Shown one piece after another: positions 24,259 to 42,513 of a stretch of DNA of 64,000 bases. Origin of the DNA: Anaerolineaceae bacterium oral taxon 439 (GTDB lineage Bacteria; Chloroflexota; Anaerolineae; Anaerolineales; Anaerolineaceae); contig CP017039.1 of the NCBI GenBank assembly GCA_001717545.1, positions 372,001 through 436,000 of the forward strand, written 5' to 3'. The notes under the pieces were generated by a model, which was not told the origin of the DNA, did no database searches, and saw only the letters and a program-made list of their open reading frames with translations. Every line of letters starts with the position of its first letter. Position 1 is the first letter of the stretch. The position numbers were made by a program, and so were the translations under genes.

Positions 24259-24270
24259 AGTCCTCTTCCT

Positions 24271-24963
24271 CTAATTCTGTCCGTAATACGCGTTCGCGCC
24301 GTGCTTTCGAAAGTAATGTTTATCGAGAATATGCTGCGGCGTGCGCGGGCAATCTTCCCTCAATAATACCGTTGAAAGCGCGATTTCGGCGACAGTTTCA
24401 AGAACGACTGCATGATAAACCGATTCCGCCGCTGTCTTTCCCCAGGCGAACGGGCCGTGATTCCTGACAAGGATTCCGGGATTCGAAAGCGGGTCGCCGA
24501 CGCCGATCGTCTCGGCGATAACTTTTCCTGTATTCAGTTCATAGGCGGATTCGACCTCTTCAGCCGTCAGTTCGCGCGTACAGGGAATATCGCCGTAAAA
24601 GTAATCGGCGTGCGTCGTCCCAAGGGCGGGGATCGGGAGTCCGGCTTGCGCGAAAGCGGTCGCGGTCTTCGAATGCGTATGCGTGATCCCGCCGATTGTC
24701 GGGAACCTTCGATAGAGCTCCAGGTGTGTCGGAGTATCGGAGGAAGGCTTGAGTCTGCCCTCGACGCGTTCGCCGCTTAAGAGATCGACGACGGCCATGT
24801 CCTCCGCTTTCATTTCCGCGTAGGAAACGCCGCTCGGTTTAATCACGATCAGATTTCGCTCCCGATCGATTCCGCTGACGTTGCCCCAGGTATAAATAAC
24901 GACGCCGCGCGCCTGAAGCTCAAGATTCGCTTCCAACACGTCCTGCTTAAGTCGTTCCAGCAT
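24271..24963 (-). CDS. araD: L-ribulose-5-phosphate 4-epimerase
   Basis: 230 residues of the class II aldolase/epimerase fold. It converts L-ribulose-5-phosphate into D-xylulose-5-phosphate for the pentose phosphate pathway. Visible motifs include [21 protein letters not shown], the zinc histidines in [35 protein letters not shown] and the C-terminal [15 protein letters not shown], all standard for AraD. It lies 23 bases downstream of araA. Confidence 0.96.
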
Positions 24964-24986
24964 ATCTACCGCCTTATTTCCTTAAT

Positions 24987-26459: not shown

Positions 26460-26494
26460 GATTATTTCTCCGATTATTTCCTTCATAAATCATT

Positions 26495-26519
26495 ACTTGA
26501 CCGACAAATCAAGTATAAT
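26495..26519. promoter_or_regulatory. araA / regulator divergent promoter with an inverted repeat
   Basis: ACTTGA-N8-TCAAGT (26495-26514) is a symmetric candidate operator. It touches a TATAAT (26514-26519) that can serve the plus-strand regulator, leaving only a 6 to 15-base leader before its two candidate ATGs. Confidence 0.5.
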
Positions 26520-26531
26520 ACTTCCAAGAGA

Positions 26532-27578: not shown

Positions 27579-27624
27579 CGATTCGTTATTTTTATTCGGT
27601 TTTCAAGGTGCTTTGAGCGTTCAA

Positions 27625-27638
27625 GCCTGAAAACAGGC
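27625..27638. terminator. Small hairpin between convergent regulator and permease genes
   Basis: GCCTG-AAAA-CAGGC, with no clear T-run on either side. Weak candidate for ending either transcript; nothing stronger lies in the 74-base gap. Confidence 0.35.
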
Positions 27639-27652
27639 GGATCAGTTTCTCC

Positions 27653-28627
27653 TTACTTGATAACCCGAATCGCCTTTCGATCGATCGTCAGCGCGACGAC
27701 CGCTAAGAAAATGACGCCTTTGATAAGCTGCTGAATTGCCGTGTCGTAGCGCATCATAACCAACCCGTTATTCAGAATTGCGTAAATCAGGGAGCCGACG
27801 ATAATATTTGAAAAGCGGACTTTCGCTCCGCCGGAGATCGGCATCCCGCCTAAAACGAGCGAGATCAGAATTTGCGTTTCGAGCTGGTTACCGGCCGTCG
27901 CCGTGATCGAGCCGACGCGGATAACGTTCAGGAATGCGGCGATCCCTGTAATTGCGCCTGCGGACATGAAAACCATGAACTTCGTCAGGTCAGTCCGGAT
28001 TCCAGCGAACCGGGCCGCTTTTTCGCCCGCGCCGATCGCTTTCAGGTTGATTCCGACTTTTGTAAAGGTAAAGATGAAAAAAAGGATGAGGAGAACGACG
28101 ATAACCGTCGCAATTTTCAGTCCATCCAGATTCAGATCCGTTATCTCGCGCGAAGCCGCGACCGGGGCGTTCGTCGTAAAATAGGCGCAGAAGCCGCGAA
28201 ACAGGAACATCGAACACATCGTGACGATAAACGACGGGATCTTAAACCGGACATGGAACAAACCGTTGAACGCGCCGATCGCCGCGCCGGTCGCGACGCC
28301 GGCGATAACCGCAAGGGGGATCGAGTAGAACGATAGATAACTGATAACAATGGAGACGATCCCGAGAAGCGATCCCTGAGAAAAATCTAAACCGCCGACG
28401 GTCATGATCAGGAAGACGCCGGACGAGGCGATCATGGGGACATAGACCTGGCTCAGGATTAATTTCGCCGCCGCCGGCTTCAGGATCCGACCGTTCGTAA
28501 AGATCGCGAAAAAGATAAAAATAACGATCAACCCAATGAGTGGGAAGAGCTCCCGAACCAGCGCCGCCCGATTCGCGCTGCGCCGTTGAGCGTTTTCGCT
28601 CGCTTTTGAAATGGAATTCTCTGCCAT
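27653..28627 (-). CDS. Sugar ABC transporter permease (RbsC/AraH-type), second subunit
   Basis: 324 residues from the ATG at 28625-28627, with AGGGG 5 bases upstream; the frame is open further but starts inside the ATPase gene. A basic N-terminus is followed by eight to ten helices and the family signatures GGLDFSQGSLLGIVSIV, the EAA-like loop GINLKAIGAGEKAARFAGI, and LVLGGMPISGGAKVRFSN. It forms a heterodimeric channel with the 30149-31117 permease. Last gene of the binding protein-permease-ATPase-permease operon that borders the arabinose genes. Confidence 0.9.
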   Translation of the reverse strand: MAENSISKASENAQRRSANRAALVRELFPLIGLIVIFIFFAIFTNGRILKPAAAKLILSQVYVPMIASSGVFLIMTVGGLDFSQGSLLGIVSIVISYLSFYSIPLAVIAGVATGAAIGAFNGLFHVRFKIPSFIVTMCSMFLFRGFCAYFTTNAPVAASREITDLNLDGLKIATVIVVLLILFFIFTFTKVGINLKAIGAGEKAARFAGIRTDLTKFMVFMSAGAITGIAAFLNVIRVGSITATAGNQLETQILISLVLGGMPISGGAKVRFSNIIVGSLIYAILNNGLVMMRYDTAIQQLIKGVIFLAVVALTIDRKAIRVIK

Positions 28628-28635
28628 ATCTGCCC

Positions 28636-30135
28636 CTACACCATTTTCGCGATCAGGTCTTCTTCGTTCAGCTCCGGTCTCCGGAGAAACTCGCCGCTGA
28701 GCGAACCGTTCCTCATAATTAAAATCCGATCGCACATTCCAATCAGCTCCAGAATTTCCTCGGAAATCATGATGATCGATTTTCCCTGATTCCGAAGTTC
28801 CGTCATTAAGCTGTAAATATCCGCTTTGACCTTGACGTCGATTCCGCGCGTCGGGCTGTCTAAGATCATGATATCGGAACCTTTTCCCAGCCAGCGCGCA
28901 AGAACGACTTTCTGCTTATTGCCGCCGGAGAGTTCCGAGACGGATTGCGCAATGCCGGTCATTTTGACGCTGATCCGGCTTGCGTTATCATCGGCGAATT
29001 TATCGAGGTTCTTTTTGAAAATCAAGCCGTTTAACGATAAATCTTCGATGGACGGGAGGCAGATATTGTCGCGAATGCTCGTGTTGCTGACGAGCGATTC
29101 GCTGTCGCGGTCCTTGGACGCGTAGGCGACGCTGCGCGAAATCGCGGTCGGGATTGAATTAATTTCCGTCCCGTCCGCGAGCGTTACCTTTCCGGTCCGG
29201 CCGTAGGAGCCCGCGAAAAGCGCTTTCCCGAGCTCATGCATCCCGCATTCGCTTAAACCGCCGAACCCGATGATTTCGCCTTGATGCAGGTCGAACGATA
29301 CGTTCGAAAACGCTTTGGGAACGCTCAGGTTCCGAACGCGTAGAACGACGTCGGACGGTTTCGCCTCGTCATAATCGGTCCGATAATAATGCGTTCCCAG
29401 CTCGCGTCCGACCATGAGACGGCGAAGGTCGTCCTCCGTAACGTTTTTCGTCTCGACCGTATCGATATACGCTCCATCGCGGAGCACCGAGATTCGATCT
29501 GTATGCGCGATGACTTCGGCGAGGTCATGCGAAATAAAGATCACGGTCCGCCCGTCCGCGCGGATTTTATCCATCAGGTCGTATAGTTCGAGACGCCCTT
29601 CCTGGCTCAGCGCGGTTGTCGTCTCGTCGACGACGACGAGCTTCGGGTTGAAATAGGTCGCCTTGACCATTTCGATCAGTTTTCGATCCTCAAAGTTATA
29701 GTGATCGATGACGACTTCCGCCTTGATCCGGTCATACCCATATTCCCTGAGGAGCCGCTGTGCCTCATGGTTCATCCATGTGGTATTCTTGACGCCGAAT
29801 TTTACGAACTGATCTTCCTTTCCAAGAAAGATATTCTCCGCGACGGTCAAACTGTCAACCGTCCCGGTTTCCTGGACGATAATCGAAACGCCTTTGCGGT
29901 TGGCTTCGATCTGGTTCCCGGCGCGGTATTCCGCGCCGTCTAAAATAAATCGTCCGGAGTCGATCGTGTAAATTCCGGTCAGCATCGCGGAGAACGTCGA
30001 TTTTCCGGATCCATTTTCGCCGATGAGCCCATGAATCTCGCCCTTCCGGATCGAGAATGAAACGTCTCGTACCGCTCTCGTAATTCCGAAGGATTTACAT
30101 AAATTTTCAGAAGTCAGAAGAATAGAATCGGTCAT
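28636..30135 (-). CDS. Sugar ABC transporter ATP-binding protein (RbsA/AraG-type, two ATPase domains)
   Basis: 499 residues with tandem ATPase domains. Domain 1: Walker A GENGSGKST, Walker B LVVVDETTT (Thr where most members have Pro), H-loop ISHDL. Domain 2 has a degenerate Walker A (GLSECGMHE), as usual in this family, but keeps the signature ELSGGNKQKVVLARWL and Walker B ILDSPTRGIDV, where Ser replaces the catalytic Glu. Domain 1 lacks an obvious LSGGQ. GGGAGG precedes the ATG, and the gene lies 13 bases after the permease gene. It powers import of a sugar, arabinose by context. Confidence 0.92.
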   Translation of the reverse strand: MTDSILLTSENLCKSFGITRAVRDVSFSIRKGEIHGLIGENGSGKSTFSAMLTGIYTIDSGRFILDGAEYRAGNQIEANRKGVSIIVQETGTVDSLTVAENIFLGKEDQFVKFGVKNTTWMNHEAQRLLREYGYDRIKAEVVIDHYNFEDRKLIEMVKATYFNPKLVVVDETTTALSQEGRLELYDLMDKIRADGRTVIFISHDLAEVIAHTDRISVLRDGAYIDTVETKNVTEDDLRRLMVGRELGTHYYRTDYDEAKPSDVVLRVRNLSVPKAFSNVSFDLHQGEIIGFGGLSECGMHELGKALFAGSYGRTGKVTLADGTEINSIPTAISRSVAYASKDRDSESLVSNTSIRDNICLPSIEDLSLNGLIFKKNLDKFADDNASRISVKMTGIAQSVSELSGGNKQKVVLARWLGKGSDIMILDSPTRGIDVKVKADIYSLMTELRNQGKSIIMISEEILELIGMCDRILIMRNGSLSGEFLRRPELNEEDLIAKMV

Positions 30136-30148
30136 GTCTGCCTCCCGC

Positions 30149-31117
30149 TTACTTGACGACCGCGCCCTTTTCGGGACGGGCGGTCAGGGTCACGATGATC
30201 AGGAGCGCGGCGCCGGTTACAACGTTCTGGATCGTCGTCGGCGCTCCGATCGCGATAAATCCATTGAAGATGATCGAGATGATAAACTCGCCGATGATAA
30301 TCGCCAATACCGGAATGCCATATTTTCGGAAAGCGAGCCCGAGGAACGTCCCCATTAGCGGCGTGAAGTTCCGTCCCATGGATTCCATTCCGGTAATCGC
30401 CGTCATCGACCAGCCGTAGCTGACCGTCAGAACCGCCATGATTCCGACGAAGAAATGGGTCAGGACAAAACCGATCAGCTTGTATTTATCGACGTTGATG
30501 CCCATATTTTTAGTGATGTACTCGTTGCTTCCGATCGCGCAGCAATAAGTTCCGATTTTCGTGTTGCGCAGGATAAAATTCATCAGGAGAAACGCGAAAA
30601 TGGCGAGGATAAGGCTCGCCGGCGCTTTCCCGAACGCACGGAGCGCCGTATCGAGCGTCTGCTTTTTTCCGCCTGCGACGAAGTACGCTGTACTCTCGAA
30701 AATCAGCATCAGGCCGACCGTGACGATCATGGAAGGGATCCGCAGCTTGATATAGAGAAAACCGTTCAGGAACCCGATCAGCGTTCCGCAGGCAATACAG
30801 CCAACCAATAACCCCGGATAGCCGAAACAGGTCGAGGCGATAACGCCGACGATCGAGGACAGAATGACGTTCGCTCCGATACTGAAATCGAACATTCCCA
30901 TGACGACGATAAAAAACAACCCGCAGCCGCCGACGGAGTAAATGATGCTGGACAGGAAGTAATTCACCAGCGCCGACGTGCTGCCAAAATTTTCAGGGGT
31001 GATAATCTTGAATACGCCCCAGAAAAAGACCGCAAGGAACAACAAGATCATAACGCCGTACGCTGGCCCGACCGTTAATCTCTTTCGTAAGGTTTCGAAC
31101 CTTTGGCTTAGACTCAT
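30149..31117 (-). CDS. Sugar ABC transporter permease (RbsC/AraH-type), first subunit
   Basis: 322 residues with about nine helices. Family signatures: GMFDFSIGANVILSSIVGVI, LRIPSMIVTVGLMLIFES, the loop KIGTYCCAIGSNEYITKNMG, and LMGTFLGLAFRKYGIPVL. Compared with the 27653-28627 paralogue the 'SxGGMxxxGG' loop is altered, suggesting a specialised heterodimer. GGGAG precedes the ATG. The gene is separated from the upstream binding-protein gene by 125 bases holding a stable hairpin. Confidence 0.9.
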   Translation of the reverse strand: MSLSQRFETLRKRLTVGPAYGVMILLFLAVFFWGVFKIITPENFGSTSALVNYFLSSIIYSVGGCGLFFIVVMGMFDFSIGANVILSSIVGVIASTCFGYPGLLVGCIACGTLIGFLNGFLYIKLRIPSMIVTVGLMLIFESTAYFVAGGKKQTLDTALRAFGKAPASLILAIFAFLLMNFILRNTKIGTYCCAIGSNEYITKNMGINVDKYKLIGFVLTHFFVGIMAVLTVSYGWSMTAITGMESMGRNFTPLMGTFLGLAFRKYGIPVLAIIIGEFIISIIFNGFIAIGAPTTIQNVVTGAALLIIVTLTARPEKGAVVK

Positions 31118-31170
31118 AAGGGACTCCCTGATCGCTTTTCGCGGATCGCGAATTCAGACGGATCATGTAC

Positions 31171-31214
31171 GACCGCAAGACTGAGCTACAGGACTTCTTT
31201 TCAGCCTTGCGGTC
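31171..31214 (-). promoter_or_regulatory. Intercistronic hairpin after the binding-protein gene
   Basis: GACCGCAAG / CTTGCGGTC, 9-bp perfect stem with a 26-base loop. No T-run follows on the minus strand, so it more likely protects the binding-protein mRNA 3' end or attenuates than terminates fully. Comparable hairpins follow the binding-protein genes at 47866 and 54414. Confidence 0.5.
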
Positions 31215-31242
31215 CTTCGTTTATAAAATCAGCTTGAAATTA

Positions 31243-32367
31243 TTAATTGCTGTGGCGGGAGACGACATCCTCAACCGATAAGGATTCGCAGGCTTCATTC
31301 AGCTCTTCATAGCTGTAATCCGCCATCGCCCGGATTTCATCCGCGTTATACGGAAGCGCGTCGCCGGTAAAATATTCGGCGTATTTGGCGTAGTCCTCTG
31401 TCGAGGCCACGTACATGTACGGGAAGACCATATCATGGAAGCTATCTTCCGGCGTTTCATATTTTCCCTTAATCGTATTATAGATCATCATGAACGCGAA
31501 GAACGGATCGGCGTAGTGACCGCCGGATTCGACCGACATTGCGCCTTTCGCCAGCTGTTCGTCGAGATCGGGGAGGAAATCCGTCGAGGCGACCTGAATC
31601 TTACCGGTTAAGCCGAGCCCGTCGATCGCCGCTAATCCGCCGATCAGCGTATCGCCCCCGCCGCCTGCAGCGATTAAGGCGTCGATGTCCGGGTTGGCGT
31701 TGATAATCGCTTCGGCGGTTGCGCGGCCGGTATCGGAGGTCGTCCCGCCGTACTGCGGTTCAAGAAGTTCGACCGGATCGTCCGGGTGCGCGGCGTTCCA
31801 GGCTTCGACGCCCGCCTGATACCCTTCCCAACGGCCGAGGAACGTCGCGTCGCCCGCTTCCCAGCCCATCAGGCCGATCTTGCGCGCGCCCTTCTCGGCG
31901 AGAATCGTAACCAGGCGCATCCCATTGTCAACTTCCGATTCATGAACCGTGCCGACGTAATATTTCGACTTTTTGGCTAATTCATATTCGTTCGGGTTCG
32001 CTTCCGGGTTAATCGCGCGGAAGAACTGCGCGAGGTAGACCCCGTATTCGTCCGCCGTGTTAATCGCCGCGTTCATCTCAGCGGTGGCGGAGTTGCAGAG
32101 AATAATCCCATCCATGCCAGCCAGCGCCAGCTGCTCAACGGAATCGGTGACTTTTTCGGAGATATGGCCCTGATCGACGTAAGTTACGTTCACGTCGCCC
32201 AGCGCTTCGGCGGCCGCGTCGATCATGCGCTTGACTTCGCTGCCGAGGGTATCGGTCGAGCTCCAAATCGAGACGCCGATGTTGATTTCAGCCTGCGCGG
32301 AGACCGCGAACGTCGCGGCGGTCAACGCAAAAACGAGAACGACCAAACTCAAAACAATCTTCTTCAT
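31243..32367 (-). CDS. Sugar ABC transporter substrate-binding protein
   Basis: 374 residues, exported: signal peptide KKIVLSLVVLVFALTAATFA with cleavage near SAQA (residue 25) and no lipobox. The mature part is a type I periplasmic-binding (ribose/LacI-like) fold with GVSIWSSTDTLGSEVKRM, AGMDGIILCNSATAEMN, the hinge region and an AEAIINANPDIDALIAAGG segment. AAGGA precedes the ATG. First gene of its operon. Its location between arabinose genes suggests L-arabinose or an arabinoside as ligand, but no binding residues can be assigned. Confidence 0.9.
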   Translation of the reverse strand: MKKIVLSLVVLVFALTAATFAVSAQAEINIGVSIWSSTDTLGSEVKRMIDAAAEALGDVNVTYVDQGHISEKVTDSVEQLALAGMDGIILCNSATAEMNAAINTADEYGVYLAQFFRAINPEANPNEYELAKKSKYYVGTVHESEVDNGMRLVTILAEKGARKIGLMGWEAGDATFLGRWEGYQAGVEAWNAAHPDDPVELLEPQYGGTTSDTGRATAEAIINANPDIDALIAAGGGGDTLIGGLAAIDGLGLTGKIQVASTDFLPDLDEQLAKGAMSVESGGHYADPFFAFMMIYNTIKGKYETPEDSFHDMVFPYMYVASTEDYAKYAEYFTGDALPYNADEIRAMADYSYEELNEACESLSVEDVVSRHSN

Positions 32368-32665: not shown

Positions 32666-32818
32666 CAGCGGATCAGCTCCGCCAGCATGCGAATCGCGCC
32701 GATCGTCATTTCCCAAGTCACCTTATCGGCATAGGTATATTTCTTACGGTACTTCCCCCAAAGGTCAATCATTACAGGACTTCCGTACGAGCGCTTTCAA
32801 CTGCGTCGACGTTTTCAT
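32665..32818 (-). pseudogene. AbiEii toxin gene reduced to its two ends
   Basis: The ATG at 32816-32818 overlaps the antitoxin stop (ATGA), exactly as in abiEi-abiEii pairs, and reads MKTSTQLKALVRK, the typical AbiEii start, before a stop at 32765. A second open piece, 32665-32772, reads DLWGKYRKKYTYADKVTWEM and ends GAIRMLAELIR, which resembles the C-terminal tail of AbiEii nucleotidyltransferases. All of the catalytic domain is missing, so an internal deletion of roughly 200 codons is inferred. No functional toxin can be made. Confidence 0.65.
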
Positions 32819-33408
32819 AAAAGCACCTCCAAATAGCTTCTTAAGCGCCTGTCGACGTTGAACGTCTCCGCCATCTGCATGAGCGTATTCAGATCCTTAT
32901 CCTTGCGTCCGGCATAACGTTTTATAGCGTCGGTCATGACCGCAATATCCATCCGGTTCTGACTTCGCAGGATATCGCAGATCGTGCGCTCCAAGCCATA
33001 AGCTTTGACCGTATGTCCGAAAAGTGTGATAAGTCCTGTGGCTCCCAGATCGTGCAATTCCCGTTTGATCGTGAACACCGTGAAACCATCGCGACGCAGA
33101 TTTCTGGCGTTGTATCCGGTAGGAACGGTCACTGTGTAGTGGATTGGATCACGGTCGGTCAGGTCATGTAGAAACAGCGCTGTTTCATGTGAGTAGATCA
33201 TTTTCGGCCGCCTTAACTGCGCGGCGTACATCTTGTCTGCGAATTCGTCAGGGAGAACGTAAACGCCATAGGCTGCCCGGTTAAGATTGCCGGACTTCAC
33301 CAGCAGACGCAGACGTTCGTTGGAGACGCCGGCAGCGTTCGCTTGCGCGGAGGTGACCATACCGCCATACTGCATCAGAACAGATTGGAGTTTAACGGGT
33401 ATTGTCAT
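32815..33408 (-). CDS. AbiEi-family antitoxin / transcriptional regulator (orphan)
   Basis: 197 residues. An N-terminal winged helix-turn-helix (YGGMVTSAQANAAGVSNERL, then LNRAAYGVYVLPDEF) is joined to the AbiEi C-terminal domain (MIYSHETALFLHDLTDR, YGLERTICDILRSQ). In type IV toxin-antitoxin systems AbiEi represses its own promoter and counters AbiEii, a nucleotidyltransferase active in phage abortive infection. Here the toxin is a remnant, so the protein is an orphan, perhaps kept as a regulator. Its promoter is covered by a large inverted repeat, as expected for autoregulation. Ribosome site weak. Confidence 0.85.
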   Translation of the reverse strand: MTIPVKLQSVLMQYGGMVTSAQANAAGVSNERLRLLVKSGNLNRAAYGVYVLPDEFADKMYAAQLRRPKMIYSHETALFLHDLTDRDPIHYTVTVPTGYNARNLRRDGFTVFTIKRELHDLGATGLITLFGHTVKAYGLERTICDILRSQNRMDIAVMTDAIKRYAGRKDKDLNTLMQMAETFNVDRRLRSYLEVLL

Positions 33409-33580: not shown

Positions 33581-34567
33581 TCAGCGGATCAGCTCCGCCA
33601 GCCGCTCGCCGATCTCGATCAGATCAATACCCTTCGTGAACTGGAGGCAGGTCCCGGACGGATAGCGCGTTTTTTCGACCCAGTCCGCCGGAATCGCGCT
33701 GACCCCATACTTCGCTCCTAAAATCGCGCCGCAGACCGCGCCGATCGTATCGGCGTCGCGTCCGAAATTCGCCGCCAGCGTTACGCCTTTCCGGAAATCC
33801 GCGCCCGCCAGCCGCAAGCAGGCGAATGCCGACGGGATCGCTTCTGCCGTTGTCGCCCATTTCGTGGTCCGCAGACGGTCATGCAGCTTCATCCAGGCTG
33901 CAGCAACGTCATAATTCGCCGCTTCGACGATTTCGAAGGCTGCCGTCAGGTTCGCATACAGCCATGAATCCTCCGGAACACAGTCCATCGCGGTAGCCAG
34001 GATTTCATCGATCGTCCCGTCGACCATCGCGACCGAAACCGCCGCCGCTACTGCCTGCGCGCCCCAGATCCCATCCATCGAATGGCTGATCGAGGCGTCA
34101 ATCTCTGCCATCCGGGCGGCGGCTTTTGGATCCCCGGCAGCGGCGATGCCGATCGGCGCAATCCGCATCGCCGCTCCATCGCTCAGGTGATACGTATTGA
34201 ACATGCCCGATTGCGGCGGGCGCAGTCCGCGCCGCAGGTTATTCGCCGCTTCAACCTCGCTGTCGCCGCCGCGTTTAAATTCGTCCTGAACCGCGACGTT
34301 TTCAAGCCAGGCGGCTGTAACCGCTTCCTGCGTGAGTTCCCCGCCGCAGCGGATCATCGTCTGCGCCGTGAGGAGCGCAAATTCGGTGTCGTCCGTGCTC
34401 CAGACCGCGCCTCCCGAGAAATCGGTGATGAATCCGTAGTTCGCCCGATTCTCCTGCGTCCGCGCGGCGTCGCCGAGCGAATCGCCGATCGCCAATCCAC
34501 AGATTGCTCCGACTGCCTTCTCGCGGCGGAACGCACTGTTTTTCGCTAAATCTTCCCGTGTAATCAT
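33581..34567 (-). CDS. ADP-ribosylglycohydrolase-family enzyme (short form)
   Basis: 328 residues, all-helical ADPRH/DraG fold. The binuclear magnesium site is well preserved: GAICGLAIGDSLGDAAR at the start, WSTDDTEFALL (the STDD motif) near residue 56, and FGRDADTIGAVCGAILGA (the GRDADT motif) near residue 267. Classical members cleave ADP-ribose from proteins or small molecules; many bacterial relatives sit in sugar or nucleoside loci and have unknown substrates. It overlaps the larger paralogue upstream by four bases. By context the two act in catabolism rather than in protein modification. Cytoplasmic: no signal peptide. Confidence 0.88.
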   Translation of the reverse strand: MITREDLAKNSAFRREKAVGAICGLAIGDSLGDAARTQENRANYGFITDFSGGAVWSTDDTEFALLTAQTMIRCGGELTQEAVTAAWLENVAVQDEFKRGGDSEVEAANNLRRGLRPPQSGMFNTYHLSDGAAMRIAPIGIAAAGDPKAAARMAEIDASISHSMDGIWGAQAVAAAVSVAMVDGTIDEILATAMDCVPEDSWLYANLTAAFEIVEAANYDVAAAWMKLHDRLRTTKWATTAEAIPSAFACLRLAGADFRKGVTLAANFGRDADTIGAVCGAILGAKYGVSAIPADWVEKTRYPSGTCLQFTKGIDLIEIGERLAELIR

Positions 34568-36669
34568 GCGTTTTCTAATTCCTTTACCCGAAAATTTCCA
34601 AACGAGCTCCTTCCCCCTTCGCAGCTCGCCAATCCGACCATGCCATATTGAAGCGTATCGTCGGTAACCGATAATTCATCCCGTCCATCGACCGAGAGCG
34701 TCAAACGCTCGGCTTCGGCTCGAAATCCAAGTTTTATCTCGCGATCGAACGTCCAGTCACAGGCCTTCTCGGCCAGCTCAATCCAGCGACCCGCTGTCTT
34801 TCGATAAATCGCCAGCCCGCCTTTTTTCAGCCCGGCGTAATAGCCGCGCTGCGCGCCCTGGACCCGGAGGGAAATCAGGTGGCTGTACCCGTAGCAGGGA
34901 ATAACCGAAGCTTCGAGCTGAACGTTCCGGGTAAAATAATTTCCGGTCATCGCCTCGCCGCCGTTCAGGCTGAACGTTTCGAGCCGCCCGTCGACGAGGT
35001 TCCAGGCGCCGTGATCGTGGGAAAACGGGATGATTGAGTCGAACTCTTTCACGCACTGCGAAAAGTCGATCCGGTAGTTCGCGGGACCGAAGATCTCAAA
35101 GTCATCGAGATAGACGCTTCGGAAATCGCGATTTTTCCGGGATGAATTCGACTCGATCCAAAACCCGATCTCGTCGGCTACCGCTCCGCCCAGATCCGGA
35201 ATCTGGAAAATGACGTGGCGCCAGCCTGGTTTTTCGAGCGAAAATCCGCTGATTAAGACGTCGCGCCCGGTCGCCGTGTTTCGGACGTACGGACTGATCA
35301 GGAGGTCTTCGCCGCCGTGTTTCTCGGCCATGAGCCAAAACGAGACCGTTTGGCCCGGATACGCCGTCGGAGAAAAGACGGGACTGTAGCGGGTGTCGTT
35401 AAAGTCGTCTCGTCGATAAAAAGGCTTATAGAAGACTTTCCCTGACTGTCCGCGCTGAAGGCGGTCGACGAGTATTTCGAGCGATCCGCTGCCCGAATGT
35501 GAGAAACGGGTCGACTGTCGAAGGCTGAAAGCGTTCGGGTCCGAGAGGCGGAAATTATGCGTCGACCCAGGCAGTTCAAAATCGAAATGAATCAAACCGG
35601 ATTTGTTCAGATCGATTGGGACCGGCGTTTCCTCATCCTCGCGGAGGAACTGGCTGATCTGATACAGTTCTTTCGCGAACGACGGAATATCCAGAATATT
35701 CAGATAGCCGGAGATCCCCGAAAGGACGATTGCGTCGTTAATTGGGTCGCGGTAATGGGTTGGGATACCGGCGAGGCCGTCGGCAACGCCCATGATTGTA
35801 CCGACATTTCCAGCGTTGCAATCGGTGTCCCAGCCCGCCATCGTCGCAATTTCAACCGCGCGCGCAAAGTTTCGTCCGTAAACTAACGCCATGGCGCAGA
35901 CGCCGGCGTTCGGAATAATATGGCAGACGCCGGGGAACTTATCGTATCCCCAGGTCTGCTGTAAGTACGCTATGCAGGACCGCCAGTCGTCCGGCTCTTC
36001 GTTTCGAAAGCGGACGACATCCCGGACGACGCGCGCGTAATCGCTCTCTTCCGGGATCAGGCTGAGGCCAATCTCGATTATCCGATCCACGTCGGACGTC
36101 TCAAACGCGGCGGCAATGCAGCCGGCGATAAACGCCGCCCCGTATAAGCCGTTGCGGTCATGCGAAACGGAAGCGGCTGTCGTCGCATAAGCCGCCGCTT
36201 TTTCCGGCCGGCCGGGGAAAATCAGCCCCCAGGTATCGATAAAGATCTGGCCGCCAATCTGTTCCGCGATCGTCATCCCGTTGACCTTCGCCGAGCCGGA
36301 TTCCGGCGCGCTCATTCCATTTTTCAGGTTCAGGTATGCGGTATGCTCCGTGCTGACTCCGTATCCGCCCCACCAGAACATGCCAACGCCTTCGCGGGCA
36401 TAATTCAGCCATGCTTCCGCAACATCGTTCGCGGTCATTCTCCCGTTCCCGGCGCGATCCTTCAGCGCCCGCAGGAAGTAAACGGGGCCGTTCGCGTCGT
36501 CATCCGCCGCGAAGTTCTTGAACGATTTTACATAATCGGTAATTTCTCCGTAATAATGCCGAATTCGCTCATAGGTCCAGACCGTCGGTTCTACCGGCGC
36601 GCCCAGGCGAATCCCGATATTCATTCCAAGAAATCCAGCGTAAATTTTTTCTAAAATTGATTGTGTCAT
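34564..36669 (-). CDS. ADP-ribosylglycohydrolase-family enzyme with C-terminal jelly-roll-like region
   Basis: 701 residues, about twice the usual length. The N-terminal 340 are an ADPRH domain (KIYAGFLGMNIGIRLGAP; DDDANGPVYFLRAL in the place of STDD; GWDTDCNAGNVGTIMG in the place of GRDADT). The replaced acidic motifs (DDDAN, WDTDCN) mark the divergent branch often annotated as ADPRH in sugar clusters. Residues 360-700 look all-beta with carbohydrate-binding or LamG-like repeats (SHSGSGSLEILV, GWRHVIFQIPDLGG, YYAGLKKGGLAIYRKTAGRW). No signal peptide, so an intracellular glycan- or glycoside-active enzyme is suggested. It is the first gene after the importer terminator and is coupled to the short ADPRH. 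Confidence 0.8.
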   Translation of the reverse strand: MTQSILEKIYAGFLGMNIGIRLGAPVEPTVWTYERIRHYYGEITDYVKSFKNFAADDDANGPVYFLRALKDRAGNGRMTANDVAEAWLNYAREGVGMFWWGGYGVSTEHTAYLNLKNGMSAPESGSAKVNGMTIAEQIGGQIFIDTWGLIFPGRPEKAAAYATTAASVSHDRNGLYGAAFIAGCIAAAFETSDVDRIIEIGLSLIPEESDYARVVRDVVRFRNEEPDDWRSCIAYLQQTWGYDKFPGVCHIIPNAGVCAMALVYGRNFARAVEIATMAGWDTDCNAGNVGTIMGVADGLAGIPTHYRDPINDAIVLSGISGYLNILDIPSFAKELYQISQFLREDEETPVPIDLNKSGLIHFDFELPGSTHNFRLSDPNAFSLRQSTRFSHSGSGSLEILVDRLQRGQSGKVFYKPFYRRDDFNDTRYSPVFSPTAYPGQTVSFWLMAEKHGGEDLLISPYVRNTATGRDVLISGFSLEKPGWRHVIFQIPDLGGAVADEIGFWIESNSSRKNRDFRSVYLDDFEIFGPANYRIDFSQCVKEFDSIIPFSHDHGAWNLVDGRLETFSLNGGEAMTGNYFTRNVQLEASVIPCYGYSHLISLRVQGAQRGYYAGLKKGGLAIYRKTAGRWIELAEKACDWTFDREIKLGFRAEAERLTLSVDGRDELSVTDDTLQYGMVGLASCEGGRSSFGNFRVKELENA

Positions 36670-36701
36670 AAATGCGTACCGCGTGGTTCCTCCTCCGGTT
36701 T

Positions 36702-36741
36702 AAAAAAATCCCGGACGCGCTGAAAAAAAGCGGCGTCCGGG
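36702..36741 (-). terminator. Rho-independent terminator of the importer operon
   Basis: On the minus strand CCCGGACGCCGCT pairs with AGCGCGTCCGGG (one bulge), then ATTTTTTT. It separates the binding-protein gene from the downstream ADPRH genes; partial read-through would lower their expression relative to the importer. Confidence 0.85.
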
Positions 36742-36755
36742 TCAAATTAGAATCT

Positions 36756-38189
36756 TTAGTTCAAAACACTGTTCAGATATTCGGTAATCTGCGTTCCTCC
36801 GGCTTCGTTCCATTTCGCAACGAATTCGTCGAAGTCTTCGATCGGGCGGACCCCGCGGATAATATCGGTCGAATACTCAGTGTACAGCATATCCATCGCA
36901 TCTTTGAGCGGAAGCAGGTCCTCAGGCAGAATCACGTTGACGTCGGCGGCGAAATACTGATCGGCCTTGGCGAGCGAATCCAGCGCCGGTGCGGTCAGGA
37001 CTTCACCATCAACCTTGCTCAGGTCAAGTCCATTCATCGTTGGCCAGAAGCGCGCCCACCATTCCGGAAATTTATCGGTCAAAACATATCGATCGCCGTC
37101 CATCGTATAATGAACGTCCTTGAGTCCGAGTTTATCAAAAATACGTCCCTCCGGGCTGGCCATGAAGTCGAGAACCGCCCAGGCCGCATCTTTGACTTCT
37201 GAATAGGCGTTGATCGCAAAGCCGCGCGGTTCTTTGGAAACGTCGAGTGACTTGTACGCCTGTGAGATACCCTTCGCTGGCGGAAGCGCGATCAGTTCGG
37301 TCGCGTCGCCGTTCGTCTGGATCATTTTGTTATTGTAGACGTTGACGACGTCGCCCGCTGTCCCGGCGACCATACAGGATTTCCCTTCGTAAAACGCCTG
37401 CTCCATCGTGTCCCACTGTTTCGTGACGTATTCGTTATCAAGAAGCCCTTCGGCGTACAGCTTCGCGTAAAATTCAAGCTTATTCTTCTCGGCTTCGGTC
37501 GCGGCGGCGTAGACCCAGTTTTCACCGTCTTTGACGATCGTCGCCGTGACGCCGAACGCATGGTTGAATATATTATCCAGCCTGATAATCCCGCCGTCGG
37601 TCGTAATCGCGTAGTCGCAAAGGCCCTTCTCTTTCATTTCCTTGAACATCGCGTAATAATTTTCCGTCGTTGGATCTTCGGCGACTTTCTTCGCGCTGTC
37701 CAGCTGCTCATAGTGGTCCTTGCGGATAACCGGGATCTGGACCCGGCCGGGGGCGAGCCAGAGCAGGTACGGATACGATTTAATTGCCGCGCGGTTATGG
37801 TCGCCCATCAGCGCCTGAACATTTTCTGAGCCGGCGATAAAATCGGTTAGATCTTCGAGGAGGCCTTCCTGCGAAATCGGGAGATCGCCGCCCTGAAAAT
37901 AGATAATATCGGGGTTGATTTGCTCCGTGCGGAACGCGATCGGTACAACGTCCGCATATTTCCCAGCTGGAGCTTCGAGGACTTCAATATCAACATAATT
38001 CCCCATCTTCGCCATCGCGGCTTCAACCTGATCGATCAGCTGAATCACGGACTCTTCGGTCGGGACGACGTCTTTGCATAAATACGTCACCTTAACCGGG
38101 CTTTCCGGACTTCCGATTCCCTGCGCCGCGGCAGAACCAACTACGCAAAGGACCGCCAATACAACGAACAACCACATACTTTTCTTCAT
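36756..38189 (-). CDS. Extracellular solute-binding protein (family 1, LplA-like)
   Basis: 477 residues with signal peptide KKSMWLFVVLAVLCVVGSAAA (cleavage near AAAQG, residue 23) and no lipobox after the cysteine-containing h-region. The mature protein is a family 1 carbohydrate-binding fold: TYLCKDVVPTEESV, DIIYFQGGDLPISQEGLLEDL, GKSCMVAGTAGDVVNV and a late FPEWWARFWPTMNGLDL. With LplB/LplC-type permeases it forms an oligosaccharide- or glycoside-type importer. The operon encodes no ATPase; such importers normally share an MsmX-like ATPase from elsewhere. AAGGAG precedes the ATG. Confidence 0.88.
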   Translation of the reverse strand: MKKSMWLFVVLAVLCVVGSAAAQGIGSPESPVKVTYLCKDVVPTEESVIQLIDQVEAAMAKMGNYVDIEVLEAPAGKYADVVPIAFRTEQINPDIIYFQGGDLPISQEGLLEDLTDFIAGSENVQALMGDHNRAAIKSYPYLLWLAPGRVQIPVIRKDHYEQLDSAKKVAEDPTTENYYAMFKEMKEKGLCDYAITTDGGIIRLDNIFNHAFGVTATIVKDGENWVYAAATEAEKNKLEFYAKLYAEGLLDNEYVTKQWDTMEQAFYEGKSCMVAGTAGDVVNVYNNKMIQTNGDATELIALPPAKGISQAYKSLDVSKEPRGFAINAYSEVKDAAWAVLDFMASPEGRIFDKLGLKDVHYTMDGDRYVLTDKFPEWWARFWPTMNGLDLSKVDGEVLTAPALDSLAKADQYFAADVNVILPEDLLPLKDAMDMLYTEYSTDIIRGVRPIEDFDEFVAKWNEAGGTQITEYLNSVLN

Positions 38190-38226
38190 TGTCTTACTCC
38201 TTTATAAACAGATAAAAATAAACTTA

Positions 38227-39108
38227 TTATTCTTTGACTCCGCCTGCCATGACGTCTTTCGCGTAATAGCGCAGGACAATCGGGTACAGCAGGAGGATCG
38301 GAATAATCGAGACGACGATCGTTGCGCAGCGCAGCGCGTTGTAGTCTATCCGCGCTAATTCGTTGTAGTTGTACAGATTCTGCTGTCCAACGATCGAGGT
38401 CGTATCGCCAAGAATAACGAACTGGCGGAGGATAACCTGAAGCGTCGTGTCCTTCGTTTTCGTCAGGTAGATACCAGCTCGAAAATATTCGTTCCAGCGG
38501 ATCACCGCGTAGAACATCGTGATTGTCGCGATTCCGGACTTCGCCAGCGGAAATACGACCCGGAAGAGCGTTGTCCAATGCCCCGCCCCGTCGATCTCCG
38601 CCGCTTCGTAAATTTCCGACGGAATCGCCTGATAATAGCGCATCAGGATAATCAGGTAGTAGACGTTTACCGCCATGACCAGAATAACGGACCATCGGCT
38701 TCCCATCAGCCCGATATCCTTAATGACGAGGTATTCGGGGACCATTCCGGGATCGAAGAGCATCATGAAAATCAGGAAGACCATCAGCGGCTTTTTCAGC
38801 GTTAATCCGCGTCGGGTCAGGACGTATGCCGCCGAGCAGGTCAGCAGGATATTGATCGCCAACCCGACGATGGTAATAAAAATTGAATTCATCAGCGCCC
38901 CCATCAGCGCCGGATGATTGAAGACGATTCGATAGTTAATCAGGTCGAAGCTGCGCGGGAGGATCGCCAACCCGCCCATGCGAGCCGATTCTTCCGGGGA
39001 GGAAAATGATTTTGCGATGATGTTTAGGATCGGAACGATCATCGTCAGCGTGACCAGGAAGAGAATCGCGATCAGGAAAAGCTGTGAAAGGGAGAGTTTT
39101 CGCTTCAT
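38227..39108 (-). CDS. Carbohydrate ABC transporter permease (LplC/YtcP-type)
   Basis: 293 residues, six helices. The EAA loop that contacts the ATPase is clear: IPSEIYEAAEIDGAGHWTTL, followed by FRVVFPLAKSGIATITMF. The tail QQNLYNYNELARIDYNALRC and ending YYAKDVMAGGVKE are characteristic of the YtcP/LplC group. It lies 2 bases after the partner permease and 37 bases before the binding-protein gene, with AAGGAG in the end of the upstream gene. Confidence 0.92.
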   Translation of the reverse strand: MKRKLSLSQLFLIAILFLVTLTMIVPILNIIAKSFSSPEESARMGGLAILPRSFDLINYRIVFNHPALMGALMNSIFITIVGLAINILLTCSAAYVLTRRGLTLKKPLMVFLIFMMLFDPGMVPEYLVIKDIGLMGSRWSVILVMAVNVYYLIILMRYYQAIPSEIYEAAEIDGAGHWTTLFRVVFPLAKSGIATITMFYAVIRWNEYFRAGIYLTKTKDTTLQVILRQFVILGDTTSIVGQQNLYNYNELARIDYNALRCATIVVSIIPILLLYPIVLRYYAKDVMAGGVKE

Positions 39109-39110
39109 TA

Positions 39111-40034
39111 TTACCAGACTCCTTCTCCGGTAAAGCGCTTGGAAAGGAAATGGGTAACCAGGACGAGGACGGTCCCGGTTATGCCTTTGAGGAGGCCGAC
39201 AGCGCTTGCCAGCGAATACTGGCCGTTTTCGATTCCGATCCGATAAATATACGTATCTAAAATATCGATCGTGCTCAGGATCGCGTTATTCGAAAAATTC
39301 AGGACCTGATCGAAGCCGGCGTTCAGGAAAAAGCCGAGATTCATGATAAACACGGTCAGCATCGGTGCGACGAGCGCCGGCAGGATTATCCTGCCGATGA
39401 CCTGAAGCCGGGTCGCGCCGTCGATTTCAGCCGCTTCGAACAGGTGAGCCGGAATGCTTAGAATCGCAGTAAAGTAGAAAATTGAGTCCCAGCCGATGCT
39501 GCGCCACGCTTCGGAGAACATCAGAATCCAGCGGATCGATCCCCGGTCGGTCATGAAGTCGACGCGCGGCAGGTTGAAAATCCCGAGAATCTGGTTGACG
39601 CTGCCGTCGAGCGAAAGCGCGAGGATCCAGATTCCGGCGATCACAACCCAGGATAAAAAGTGCGGCAGGTAGGTAACGATCTGGACGTATTTTCGGAAGC
39701 CGGACGAGCGGAGTTCGTTTAATAAAATTGCAAACAGGACAGTAAACGGGAAAAGCAGAACGTACTTCATGAAGCTGATGATCAGCGTATTCTGGAGGAT
39801 GCTCATGAAGCCGGGCGTGCTGAAAATCAGGTTGATATATTTCATGCCGACAAATTTCCACGCGCTGCGGGAACTGTAGCTGTAAAACGCCAGGCGCATA
39901 TTCCAAATCGGCCAAAGCCGGAACAATATAAAAAAGATCAGCGTCGGGAGGATCATCAGGTACAGGATCCGCTCGTCGTAGATTCGACGAAAGAAGCCGC
40001 GTTCGTTCAATCTTCGAGGCAGGTTATCTTTCAT
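39111..40034 (-). CDS. Carbohydrate ABC transporter permease (LplB/YteP-type)
   Basis: 307 residues, six helices, with the EAA loop IPAHLFEAAEIDGATRLQVI. The N-terminus has the YteP-like ILYLMILPTLIFFILFRLWP and the ending FLSKRFTGEGVW. Pairs with the next gene to form the channel. AAGGGGA precedes the ATG. It follows the DUF4387 gene by 18 bases, tying transport to the AtuA-like enzyme pair. Confidence 0.92.
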   Translation of the reverse strand: MKDNLPRRLNERGFFRRIYDERILYLMILPTLIFFILFRLWPIWNMRLAFYSYSSRSAWKFVGMKYINLIFSTPGFMSILQNTLIISFMKYVLLFPFTVLFAILLNELRSSGFRKYVQIVTYLPHFLSWVVIAGIWILALSLDGSVNQILGIFNLPRVDFMTDRGSIRWILMFSEAWRSIGWDSIFYFTAILSIPAHLFEAAEIDGATRLQVIGRIILPALVAPMLTVFIMNLGFFLNAGFDQVLNFSNNAILSTIDILDTYIYRIGIENGQYSLASAVGLLKGITGTVLVLVTHFLSKRFTGEGVW

Positions 40035-40052
40035 GCCAGTTCCCCTTTCTTT

Positions 40053-40367
40053 TCATGGAATTTCGATATTCAGAAGCGGGGCGTGCTGCTGCGCGCCGTA
40101 GACGTCGCGCTCGCCGACCGCTCCGGACGACGGCCCCGTCCGGTCGTAGGTAATCTTGATTCCCAGCATGGGCTCGAAGAAAACGAGTTCGGCGATATCT
40201 TCGACCCGGATCCGGTAAAGCGACGCGATCCGTTCTCGCGTCAGAGCGCCGCTCCGGACGACGCGGCGATAATCTTCGGCGTTCTCGAAAAGGACGTCCA
40301 GCGTGATCTGAAACGGGCCGCTGTTCTTGCTTCGGAGAACTTTCGCGATATCGTACAGCTTTGTCAT
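40053..40367 (-). CDS. DUF4387-family protein
   Basis: 104 residues. The opening KLYDIAKVLRSKNSGPFQIT and the ending region GERDVYGAQQHAPLL match my memory of DUF4387, a small family almost always encoded beside DUF1446 (AtuA-like) genes and probably its partner subunit. Function unknown. Its ATG overlaps the stop of the DUF1446 gene by four bases (40364-40367), so equal expression is likely. Cytoplasmic. Confidence 0.85.
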   Translation of the reverse strand: MTKLYDIAKVLRSKNSGPFQITLDVLFENAEDYRRVVRSGALTRERIASLYRIRVEDIAELVFFEPMLGIKITYDRTGPSSGAVGERDVYGAQQHAPLLNIEIP

Positions 40368-41755
40368 TTTGTCCCGCCGATCTCCCGGTAAACGATCGGG
40401 AAAGGCGCTTTTGGATCGTCAATTTCCATCAGGTGGTACACTGAAAATTCGTAGACAGCGCCGAATTCGACGTCGCTTGGCGCGAAGGGAAAAGCGAGGT
40501 TGCCGGCGGTTGACTTGCGTCCGGAATAGCCGTAGTGTAAAAAAGTTGAACGCACTGAAGCGCAGACGGTTGAAGCGATTTCCTGCGTTTCGGCGACGAC
40601 TTCGAAGAGAACGCCGAGCTCATGCGCCGGGGTATCGGCCGGTTCCGCCTCGCCCATGACCGCGTTTTTCCCGTAATTATAAAAATTGACCTGATAAGCT
40701 TCCGGATTGAGATCAGCATATTGAGCGCGGATACTTTCGCGGACAAGCGTTTCGACTTTCTCAATTTCTCCAACCAGAAGCGGGTCGCGGACACCGGCGA
40801 TCGTGAACGTCCGATATGCTATCCGACGTGCGCCTTCGAGCTTAATCCGATACGGAGAAACGGGATGGAGACGGCTGCCGCTGACGCGGATAACGCCGGG
40901 ACGGACTTCGCTGAATTCGCAGCGTTCCAAATCAAGCAGTTCGCCGGGGCCGGGGAGGAGGTATGGGTGGGCTTTTTCGTAAAACGTATGCGCTGCGACG
41001 GAGGTTTTCGTACAGCGGAGCTCGGGATTCAGCGAATGTACCTCGAAACAATCCTGTTTTATCTCGCCGAGAATGCAATCTTTTGCTGTTCCCGGATCGG
41101 CGCAAAGCGCTCCGCATTCGAGAATTTTTCCCATATGATACGCCAGCCCCGGATCGAAGCCGGCTCGAATCGCGGCGGCGGCGAACGGCGCCGGATCGTA
41201 CGCACGGCCGCAGATCACGATATCCGCTCCATTTTCAAGCGCTTCCAGAATCGGTTCGTGACCCATCTGCGCAACGATGCCGGTTGTTTCAGCGATAGCC
41301 TCTTTTGTCAGGATCGGGACGGTCCGGCTCATCGGTGTAATTTTTCCTTCCGCAAGCTTTTCTCTAACGAGCTTCTTGGGGATATCCGCGGAGATCACGG
41401 CGATTTTGACGCGGAGATGTGATTCGCTATTGTTAAGGTCTTCAAGAATTTCATCGAGAATCGAGAGCGTCCAATCGACATGCGCTTTCGCGCCGCTCCC
41501 TCCCGCCGAACCGACGATAACTGGTATTTTGTGGGCGAATCCCGCATGAATCAAGCGTGATAAGTCTTTTTTATATGCGCGGCGGCTGACGATCGCGACG
41601 TTCGCGCCTAACTTATGCGGCCCAGCGTCGGTCGATCCGGCGTCGACGATAATTGCGTCCGGATTTTCAGAGAGGCCCCTGTCGAATGATGCGTCCGGGA
41701 AACCGTACCCTAATATCCCGCAGGGCGATAAGATCCTGAACGACTCAGCTTTCAT
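40364..41755 (-). CDS. AtuA-like (DUF1446) acyclic terpene utilisation family protein
   Basis: 463 residues. The N-terminal half is a Rossmann-like DUF1446 domain: GILGYGFPDASFDRGL, PDAIIVDAGSTDAGPHKLG, VIVGSAGGSGAKAHVDW, then DIVICGRAYDPAPFAAAA and YHMGKILECGALCADPG. Pseudomonas AtuA acts in acyclic terpene breakdown, but most relatives sit in other catabolic operons with DUF4387 and their reaction is unknown; a hydratase or lyase role has been guessed. The ATG lies inside the end of the FadR-type regulator gene (11-base overlap). Here the gene travels with a sugar-type importer, so a carbohydrate-derived acid is a reasonable substrate guess. Confidence 0.88.
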   Translation of the reverse strand: MKAESFRILSPCGILGYGFPDASFDRGLSENPDAIIVDAGSTDAGPHKLGANVAIVSRRAYKKDLSRLIHAGFAHKIPVIVGSAGGSGAKAHVDWTLSILDEILEDLNNSESHLRVKIAVISADIPKKLVREKLAEGKITPMSRTVPILTKEAIAETTGIVAQMGHEPILEALENGADIVICGRAYDPAPFAAAAIRAGFDPGLAYHMGKILECGALCADPGTAKDCILGEIKQDCFEVHSLNPELRCTKTSVAAHTFYEKAHPYLLPGPGELLDLERCEFSEVRPGVIRVSGSRLHPVSPYRIKLEGARRIAYRTFTIAGVRDPLLVGEIEKVETLVRESIRAQYADLNPEAYQVNFYNYGKNAVMGEAEPADTPAHELGVLFEVVAETQEIASTVCASVRSTFLHYGYSGRKSTAGNLAFPFAPSDVEFGAVYEFSVYHLMEIDDPKAPFPIVYREIGGTK

Positions 41756-42467
41756 CCGCGCCGCCTTTTTTCATCCTCCGGGCCGTCGACGCTTTCAGCC
41801 GGCGCATGTGATTCTGGACCGCTTCGCCGGTCCCGCGCCGGTCGCGACGGCGGATCGCGGTCGCGATCGCCAAATGTTCCTGCATGATCTCGATTCGGCG
41901 GACCTGGTTCGTATGTCCCATTTCAGCGATTTCGCTGATCAGGTCGTAATACGTATCGATAAAATTCATGAAGAAGTTATTCTTCGTCAGCTCCGCCATC
42001 CGATAATGAAAATAATGATCGATTGTGCGCTGTGTCCGGTCGTCCTCAGCCAGATCCTCCGCCGCGGCGACCAGCCCGGCGATTTCTTCGTCAGTTGCGC
42101 GCTCAATAACGAGTTCCGCGATTTTCAGCTCCATCGCTTCGCGGAACTCGATCAGGTCAAAATAGGTTGCGTCGCGGAGAATTTCGCCAATCGGGAGAGT
42201 GACCGTTTTGGATGGAAGCGTTTCTTCGATAAAGGTGCCTTCCTTCGGGCGTCGACGGATATAGCCCTGCGCCTGAAGAATCGTCAGCGCTTCGCGAATG
42301 ACCCCGCGGCTGATTTCGAGCTGATCCGCAAGTTCGGTTTCGCTCGGAAGGCGGCTCCCTGGGGCTAATTCGCCGGAGTGAATTTTTTCCAGCAGCTGCT
42401 CAGCGACTTTATCGGAAAGCCGGTCGCTGCGAATCGGCCTGAACTTCAGTCGTGTCTCCGTCGTCAT
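41745..42467 (-). CDS. GntR-family regulator, FadR/FCD subgroup
   Basis: 240 residues. The winged helix-turn-helix is standard: KVAEQLLEKIHSGELAPGSR, LPSETELADQLEISRGVIRE, ALTILQAQGYIRRRPKEGTF. The C-terminal FCD helical domain has the metal-binding histidine pattern (IDHYFHYRMAEL, MQEHLAIATAI, NHMRRL). FCD regulators commonly sense organic acids or sugar acids. It is the first gene of the AtuA-DUF4387-importer operon, with a palindrome at 42496-42513 in its promoter, so it probably represses the operon until its metabolite appears. Confidence 0.92.
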   Translation of the reverse strand: MTTETRLKFRPIRSDRLSDKVAEQLLEKIHSGELAPGSRLPSETELADQLEISRGVIREALTILQAQGYIRRRPKEGTFIEETLPSKTVTLPIGEILRDATYFDLIEFREAMELKIAELVIERATDEEIAGLVAAAEDLAEDDRTQRTIDHYFHYRMAELTKNNFFMNFIDTYYDLISEIAEMGHTNQVRRIEIMQEHLAIATAIRRRDRRGTGEAVQNHMRRLKASTARRMKKGGADES

Positions 42468-42495: not shown

Positions 42496-42513
42496 TACAA
42501 TAAGACTATTGTA
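42496..42513 (-). promoter_or_regulatory. Palindromic operator before the FadR-type gene
   Basis: TACAATA-AGAC-TATTGTA, 7-bp perfect arms. It lies 29 bases upstream of the regulator start and includes -10-like hexamers, so binding would block the operon. The rest of 42514-42654 has no visible gene. Confidence 0.65.

Follow-up and report, generated by a model that had tools for sequence, protein, structure and literature searches.

The methylaspartate pathway leads from glutamate to mesaconate and citramalate, and the source describing it, where it mentions the DUF1446 gene downstream of mal, terms the product a protein of unknown function (PMC4682846). To regard AtuA (DUF1446) and DUF4387 as a pair of unknown reaction, as did the first-pass annotation of the DNA considered here, is by now outdated, since the PDB entries 9erq and 9evf, the sole PDB relatives of both proteins, name their molecules citramalate lyase subunits A and B. 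Here we describe an operon in which such a pair stands together with an importer and two ADP-ribosylglycohydrolase-fold (ADPRH) enzymes. It lies in a stretch of 64,000 nucleotides from Anaerolineaceae bacterium oral taxon 439 (contig CP017039.1, positions 372,001 to 436,000 of the forward strand; hereafter the window), the host genome being a single contig of 2,945,494 bases. We propose, with a probability of about 0.5, that the operon would import and degrade one conjugate, in which a furanose, most likely ribose, is bound glycosidically to a hydroxy acid resembling citrate or citramalate. The proposal joins three elements (a ribofuranoside, a citrate-like acid and a single conjugate), each of them suggested by gene content that recurs in relatives.

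Organization of the operon

The run of eight minus-strand genes with overlaps or small gaps seen in the first-pass annotation is borne out by our analysis: all genes are present at 33581-42467, with clean frames in the open reading frame (ORF) translations, and the Pfam families are those proposed.

41745..42467, minus strand: GntR/FCD (FadR-type) regulator (Pfam GntR 76.9 bits, FCD 73.0 bits)
40364..41755, minus strand: AtuA-family protein, putative large subunit of a citramalate-lyase-like (CmlA) enzyme (PF07287, 89.3 bits, cut-off 22.8)
40053..40367, minus strand: DUF4387 protein, putative small subunit (CmlB-like; PF14330, 124.5 bits, cut-off 27)
39111..40034, minus strand: ATP-binding cassette (ABC) permease PermB (BPD_transp_1, 36.4 bits)
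38227..39108, minus strand: ABC permease PermC (BPD_transp_1, 40.5 bits)
36756..38189, minus strand: solute-binding protein (SBP; SBP_bac_1, Pfam)
~36702..36741, minus strand: hairpin and U run in the SBP/large-ADPRH gap, candidate partial terminator (folding energy)
34564..36669, minus strand: large ADPRH, 701 aa (PF03747, 178.9 bits, cut-off 26.2)
33581..34567, minus strand: small ADPRH, 328 aa (PF03747, 180.9 bits, cut-off 26.2)
42496..42513, strand not given: inverted repeat TACAATA-N4-TATTGTA, probable operator (sequence pattern)

Overlaps of 11 bp (FCD regulator/AtuA) and 4 bp (AtuA/DUF4387 and large/small ADPRH) alternate with gaps of 18 bp (DUF4387-PermB), 2 bp (PermB-PermC), 37 bp (PermC-SBP) and 86 bp (SBP-large ADPRH). 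The importer consists of two BPD_transp_1 permeases and an SBP_bac_1 protein, a kind of carbohydrate ABC importer that we take to be the LplABC type. A Pfam search found no ABC ATPase gene within the operon; an ATPase partner elsewhere was not sought.

Conservation and distribution

A scan of named genomes yielded 27 AtuA loci, five of which carry the cluster (L013, L014, L015, L016 and L036) and come from Clostridia or Clostridiales metagenome-assembled genomes, Psychrobacillus and Cohnella. Among these, L013 is cut by a contig end, L016 has permeases of 30% identity and an SBP recognized by Pfam only, and L036 is rearranged. The nearest relative is L013. Its AtuA, both permeases (PermB 70%, PermC 73%), SBP and the beginning of its large ADPRH are 65-73% identical to those of the window; the values are lower for DUF4387 (59%) and for the regulator (49%). 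This locus stops within the large ADPRH; on a separate contig, the same genome has a large ADPRH, a small ADPRH (72%) and a PfkB-family kinase, in that order.

In the order of the Cohnella genome (246 genomes, whose members are called order-mates below; AtuA threshold E <=1e-60), AtuA occurs in 36 genomes with 37 matches, and the surroundings of every match were inspected. The full set of AtuA, DUF4387, both permeases (PermB at 50-56% identity), SBP and small and large ADPRH is found at 31 of these 37 matches, so that the co-occurrence check suggested in the first-pass annotation reveals a conserved unit. The other six lack ADPRH, and their AtuA identity is 33-49%. Among 341 genomes of the class to which L036 belongs, AtuA is present in 23 (26 matches), two matches being ADPRH-linked (L013 and L036) and 24 not; six of the latter adjoin methylaspartate genes. 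No ADPRH gene was found in the fetched stretches of the 30 remaining AtuA matches of these two groups, an absence that is weak for short stretches of 3-8.4 kb (L130, L187, L188, L192 and L201). DUF4387 adjoins AtuA in 63 of 63 matches.

The order of the small and large ADPRH genes varies among loci, and in the order-mates the small ADPRH resembles that of L014 more than that of the window. The linked loci, as counted by tblastn, include L126 and L182, whose genes are broken up over different reading frames; these cluster copies may have decayed or been poorly sequenced.

In the window's own class, AtuA occurs in one of 396 genomes, the window's own, and the large ADPRH in 124 of 396 (E <=1e-30). 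The families do not always travel together, as the large ADPRH of this class and the 30 AtuA matches without ADPRH in the fetched stretches show; independent assortment is untrue for the operon clade and true for the large ADPRH as a whole. The single occurrence of AtuA in the class and the high identity to L013 suggest that the window's genome probably gained the operon horizontally. Its G+C content (0.551 in the operon against 0.539 in the remaining window) does not show such a gain.

The AtuA/DUF4387 pair and the nature of the acid

The best PDB match of AtuA is 9erq_A (E 9.3e-145, 52% identity) and that of DUF4387 is 9erq_B (E 2.5e-27). A tree of 67 AtuA rows, which leaves out L182-L204, splits 35 operon rows from the methylaspartate group with support 100/99 and places 9erq on the methylaspartate side. 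The same genome contains a second AtuA/DUF4387 pair (locus L010, G000:C1:1226000-1245900), whose AtuA is 53% identical to that of the window and which comes after MutL, MutE and methylaspartate ammonia-lyase genes, themselves preceded by an ORF that reading of its sequence and its position mark as MutS-like. This methylaspartate-AtuA arrangement recurs in L017, L023, L029, L030 and L039 (cut by a contig end), as well as in L131-L133 and L187-L189 (two of the latter three cut short). A gene for a different type of ADPRH (533 aa) lies about 7 kb from the L010 pair, in the opposite direction.

At AtuA positions 12, 13, 47, 48, 55 and 56, 34 of the 35 operon rows have C, G, H, K, I and V (the remaining row is gapped there), the nine methylaspartate-linked rows have T, A, Y, Y, F and T, and 9erq has T, A, H, Y, F and T. 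Since 9erq shares His47 with the operon clade, position 48 (Lys versus Tyr), and not 47, sets this clade apart from the PDB enzyme. Lys48 is present in all four AtuA rows adjoining tricarboxylate-transporter genes, which were recognized by Pfam in L027 (TctC) and L129 (TctA) and by reading in L038 and L130. It is also found in L128, L031, L028 and L033, the settings of which differ or are undefined; in L032 the residue is Arg. Lys48 might reflect a substrate that bears one more charge, citrate for example; shared ancestry explains it equally well. In L027 and L038 the AtuA/DUF4387 pair is accompanied by tricarboxylate-transporter, aconitase-family and isocitrate-dehydrogenase-family genes (mostly by Pfam, the rest by reading), and these pairs are possibly citrate-cleaving relatives.

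A second lyase type in related ADPRH loci

A Spirochaetia contig (L135) carries a LacI-type regulator, small ADPRH (42%), PermB (50%), PermC (42%), SBP (39%) and large ADPRH (43%), followed by CitD, CitE and CitF; no AtuA is present in this locus. When 20 of the 25 best large-ADPRH matches outside the window's own genome were fetched, from the 124 genomes of its class with a match, CitE and CitF were found in four of the 20 stretches. CitF is above cut-off in 16 of the 396 genomes of the class, seven of which also have a large ADPRH. In all seven, CitE-CitF adjoins ADPRH genes (the large one in four, small ones in three); this is the case in none of the nine remaining CitF genomes, several of them on short contigs, the absence of ADPRH being weak in the short stretches L163, L165, L167 and L169. 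On a tree of 16 rows, which excludes the partial CitF of G051 and has L135 as a very long branch, the CitF proteins linked to ADPRH split from the remaining ones. Against the citrate-lyase model (cut-off 501), CitF of L135 scores 505 and the sole unlinked one tested 522. The window's genome itself has no match to the HpcH/CitE family and none to CitF. ADPRH/importer loci thus contain two lyases of the citrate/citramalate type that are unrelated to each other, and each of them forms its own branch.

The two ADPRH enzymes

The model of the large ADPRH (predicted local distance difference test, pLDDT, 90.7) consists of an N-terminal ADP-ribosylhydrolase fold, a middle beta-rich part and a C-terminal CBM66-like module. 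The predicted fold matches ARH3 over residues 2-343 (Z 29) and CBM66 over residues 534-700 (Z 24, root mean square deviation, rmsd, 1.7). CBM66 binds fructofuranose ends. No signal peptide was seen by eye in the large ADPRH. The segments D56-D57-D58 and W280-D-T-D-C-N285 are invariant in 37 sequences. The canonical two-metal motif of PF03747 consists of T-D-D-T and D-x-D-T; the large ADPRH departs from it, with DDD and DTDCN instead, and the small ADPRH conforms to it, with STDDT and DADT as read in the translation. The small ADPRH scores 65 bits against the NCBIfam DraG equivalog (cut-off 337) and 54 bits against Tri1 (cut-off 490), and the large one has no NCBIfam match. An ADP-ribosyl-protein hydrolase function is not favoured, given how far these scores of the small enzyme fall under the cut-offs. 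Foldseek also aligned the large ADPRH with a phage fibre and with galactocerebrosidase, at an rmsd of 15-21 over long spans, and a second aligner gave Z 23 over ~175 residues for galactocerebrosidase; neither was used for function.

Elsewhere in the genome, locus L011 (G000:C1:2893000-2912900) contains a tandem pair of large ADPRHs that share 46% identity, together with an SBP, permease-like genes, a nucleoside hydrolase, a phosphorylase, a deoxyribosyltransferase, a PfkB kinase and a SIS protein. It is likely a nucleoside or riboside locus.

Kinases and binding protein

By tblastn, a PfkB-family kinase lies 3' of the large ADPRH in 27 of the 29 order-mates L098-L126, the exceptions being L112, which has no kinase, and L115, which ends before the kinase position. 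Such a kinase is also present in L014, L036 and L136. Seven kinases were scored with the NCBIfam ribokinase model. Four of them exceed its cut-off, one each from L014, L153, L155 and L098. That of L098 is a LacI-ribokinase fusion in one reading frame upstream of AtuA, and among LacI models its LacI part scores best with RbsR, below the cut-off. A LacI-ribokinase fusion is likewise found in L101, L109 and L116 (by length and tblastn), and a split one in L126. Two ribokinases above cut-off are encoded elsewhere in the window's genome.

The model of the SBP (pLDDT 88) has chondroitin-disaccharide- and alginate-binding proteins as top-ranked folds, with a query template-modelling (TM) score of 0.58-0.69; binders of neutral sugars rank closely behind these acidic-oligosaccharide binders.

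Regulatory features and flanking genes

The regulator heading the operon has GntR and FCD domains, in agreement with its first-pass description as FadR-type with a palindrome upstream. The operator core ACAATA-N4-TATTGT (42497-42512) has a single match in the window and none in 100 shuffles, and 28 bases separate the palindrome from the start codon of the regulator, of which it is probably the operator. Conservation of this operator was rejected: with zero mismatches the palindrome occurs at two of 175 loci, both copies of the window's own locus, and thus in no other locus. FCD-type regulators of 33-49% identity stand directly ahead of AtuA in L013, L015 and many order-mates; a LacI-type regulator replaces FCD in L135 and, fused to ribokinase, in L098. 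FCD regulators often sense carboxylates.

With -22 kcal/mol, the hairpin between SBP and large ADPRH folds more stably than its shuffles do (-10.5 +/- 2.4; z -4.8), and it was not listed by a simple terminator scan. It is a candidate terminator that could possibly lower ADPRH expression below that of transport. Palindrome, hairpin and G+C content are uninformative both on the substrate and on the gain of the operon.

Directly downstream of the operon, at 32815-33408, lies an AbiEi-type antitoxin-like gene (PF13338). The operon is also flanked by genes at 22657-32367 which, on reading their sequences, probably serve L-arabinose utilisation and include a separate importer. A ribose operon flanking that of the window was considered and rejected, as 22657-32367 resembles an L-arabinose locus (by reading; a family search covered 31246-32367 only).

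Discussion

Taken together, gene content, conservation across phyla, predicted folds and related loci, from which we infer the compound, each reaction and the regulation, suggest the following route. The SBP and the two permeases would import the conjugate. The two ADPRHs, presumably cytoplasmic, would hydrolyse its glycosidic bond, and the large one might grip the furanose via its CBM66-like module. A ribokinase, encoded within the cluster by most relatives and at another place in the window's genome, would phosphorylate the ribose. The AtuA/DUF4387 enzyme, related to CmlAB, would split the freed acid into acetate and a 2-oxo acid, and the FCD regulator would probably sense that acid. The earlier suggestion of import of a glycoside-like compound, ADPRH cleavage and lyase action on the freed acid fits the kinases, lyases and regulators of the relatives.

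Several observations weigh against a ribosyl conjugate of a citrate- or citramalate-like acid. No natural ribosyl-citrate or ribosyl-citramalate is known to us, and a literature search for either compound found nothing relevant. A kinase gene is missing from the window operon; in L036, L136 and L011 the kinase falls below the ribokinase cut-off, and the kinases 3' of the large ADPRH in the order-mates were left out of that scoring. The window AtuA lies outside the group of the PDB citramalate lyase and the methylaspartate-linked proteins in the tree and differs from the citramalate-lyase group at 18 group-specific positions; since the pair belongs to a sister clade, its acid may not be citramalate. 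On the side of the second lyase, the ADPRH-linked CitF proteins of the same class score 464-487 with the citrate-lyase model, under its cut-off (all five tested of seven), and 116 of the 124 large-ADPRH genomes of this class have neither AtuA nor CitF at the thresholds used, which implies that the large ADPRH needs neither lyase. Finally, L128 is the only non-operon AtuA row inside the operon clade, and no ADPRH is found nearby; its neighbours are an M20 peptidase, an RraA-like protein and a peptide-type ABC importer (the importer by reading). The L128 pair may possibly serve the same acid delivered as an amide.

Alternatively, the lyase may act on an acid derived from the sugar itself, with the ADPRHs freeing a furanose such as apiose that is oxidised elsewhere to a branched 3-hydroxy acid cleaved by AtuA/DUF4387. 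The lyase chemistry would require just a 3-hydroxy acid, and the operon AtuA clade stands apart from citramalate lyase; we nonetheless find this improbable, as the operon has no dehydrogenase or lactonase (the neighbours in relatives are not all identified) and some of the kinases are ribokinases by score. An ester-linked acid on an oligosaccharide, with the ADPRHs trimming furanosides and an esterase in some variants freeing a citrate- or citramalate-like acid, would account for the esterase-family genes of L016, L098 and L100, for those resembling the L016 gene in L126, L150, L171 and L173, and for the acidic-oligosaccharide binders among the top-ranked SBP folds. Such a substrate seems unlikely to us, since no esterase is present in the window operon and an L016-like one is near in only two of the 29 order-mates (the L100 type was not searched for).

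The nucleoside hydrolase, phosphorylase and deoxyribosyltransferase genes beside the two large ADPRHs of L011, like the nucleoside-hydrolase-like genes of L138 and L149, might instead hint at import of a nucleoside-like N-riboside, the base of which would be opened to an acid and the ring-cleavage product handled by AtuA/DUF4387. The lack of a ring-opening enzyme in the operon and the presence of citrate-lyase genes in related loci render this very unlikely. Membership in PF03747 and the ARH3/DraG fold would also be compatible with ADPRHs that process ADP-ribose or protein ADP-ribosylation and that stand beside an acid-degrading unit by accident. This is highly improbable in view of their clustering with importer and lyase at 31 of 37 AtuA matches of one order, the kinase in 27 of 29 order-mates, scores far under the DraG/Tri1 cut-offs and the altered metal motif of the large ADPRH.

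Returning to the ribofuranoside of a citrate- or citramalate-like acid, it is tempting to speculate further that the compound is an O-riboside of a citrate-like acid, new to chemistry and degraded by a horizontally exchanged pathway. Cleavage of the acid would then have been solved twice, in the CmlAB-like and the CitDEF-like ADPRH-linked branches, and Lys48 would mark an extra carboxylate, hence a citrate-like acid and not citramalate. We hold this extended version to be doubtful. We found no published description of such an operon, AtuA being an uninformative search word because it equals a Portuguese word, and a literature search for DUF4387 returned no papers. The proposal offers a testable role for ADPRH-fold enzymes beyond protein ADP-ribosylation and for one branch of AtuA/DUF4387. 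It also predicts an undescribed sugar-acid conjugate as a possible food for relatives of Cohnella, Psychrobacillus, Clostridia, the Spirochaetia organism and the window organism, and the two lyase types limit the acid to few candidates.

Comparison with known systems

CmlAB (9erq/9evf), known here from molecule names and aligned sequence, shares the two-subunit AtuA and DUF4387 make-up, and 126 of the 157 columns invariant in the methylaspartate-linked rows and 9erq are also kept in the operon clade. The window copy differs in that its AtuA belongs to a separate clade, has no adjacent methylaspartate genes and carries Cys12, Gly13, Lys48, Ile55 and Val56, where CmlAB has Thr, Ala, Tyr, Phe and Thr. 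Citrate lyase CitDEF occupies the place of AtuA/DUF4387 in related ADPRH loci, although the proteins are unrelated and CitDEF has an acyl carrier subunit. ARH3, DraG and MJ1187 have the same fold as the first domain of the large ADPRH (Z 27-29), which differs from them in its identity of 14-20%, its DDD and DTDCN motifs, the extra CBM66-like module and its catabolic-looking operon. Finally, the yegTUV-type loci of E. coli likewise combine a transporter, an ADPRH-family protein and a PfkB kinase; they have no lyase, however, and their transporter is of another type.

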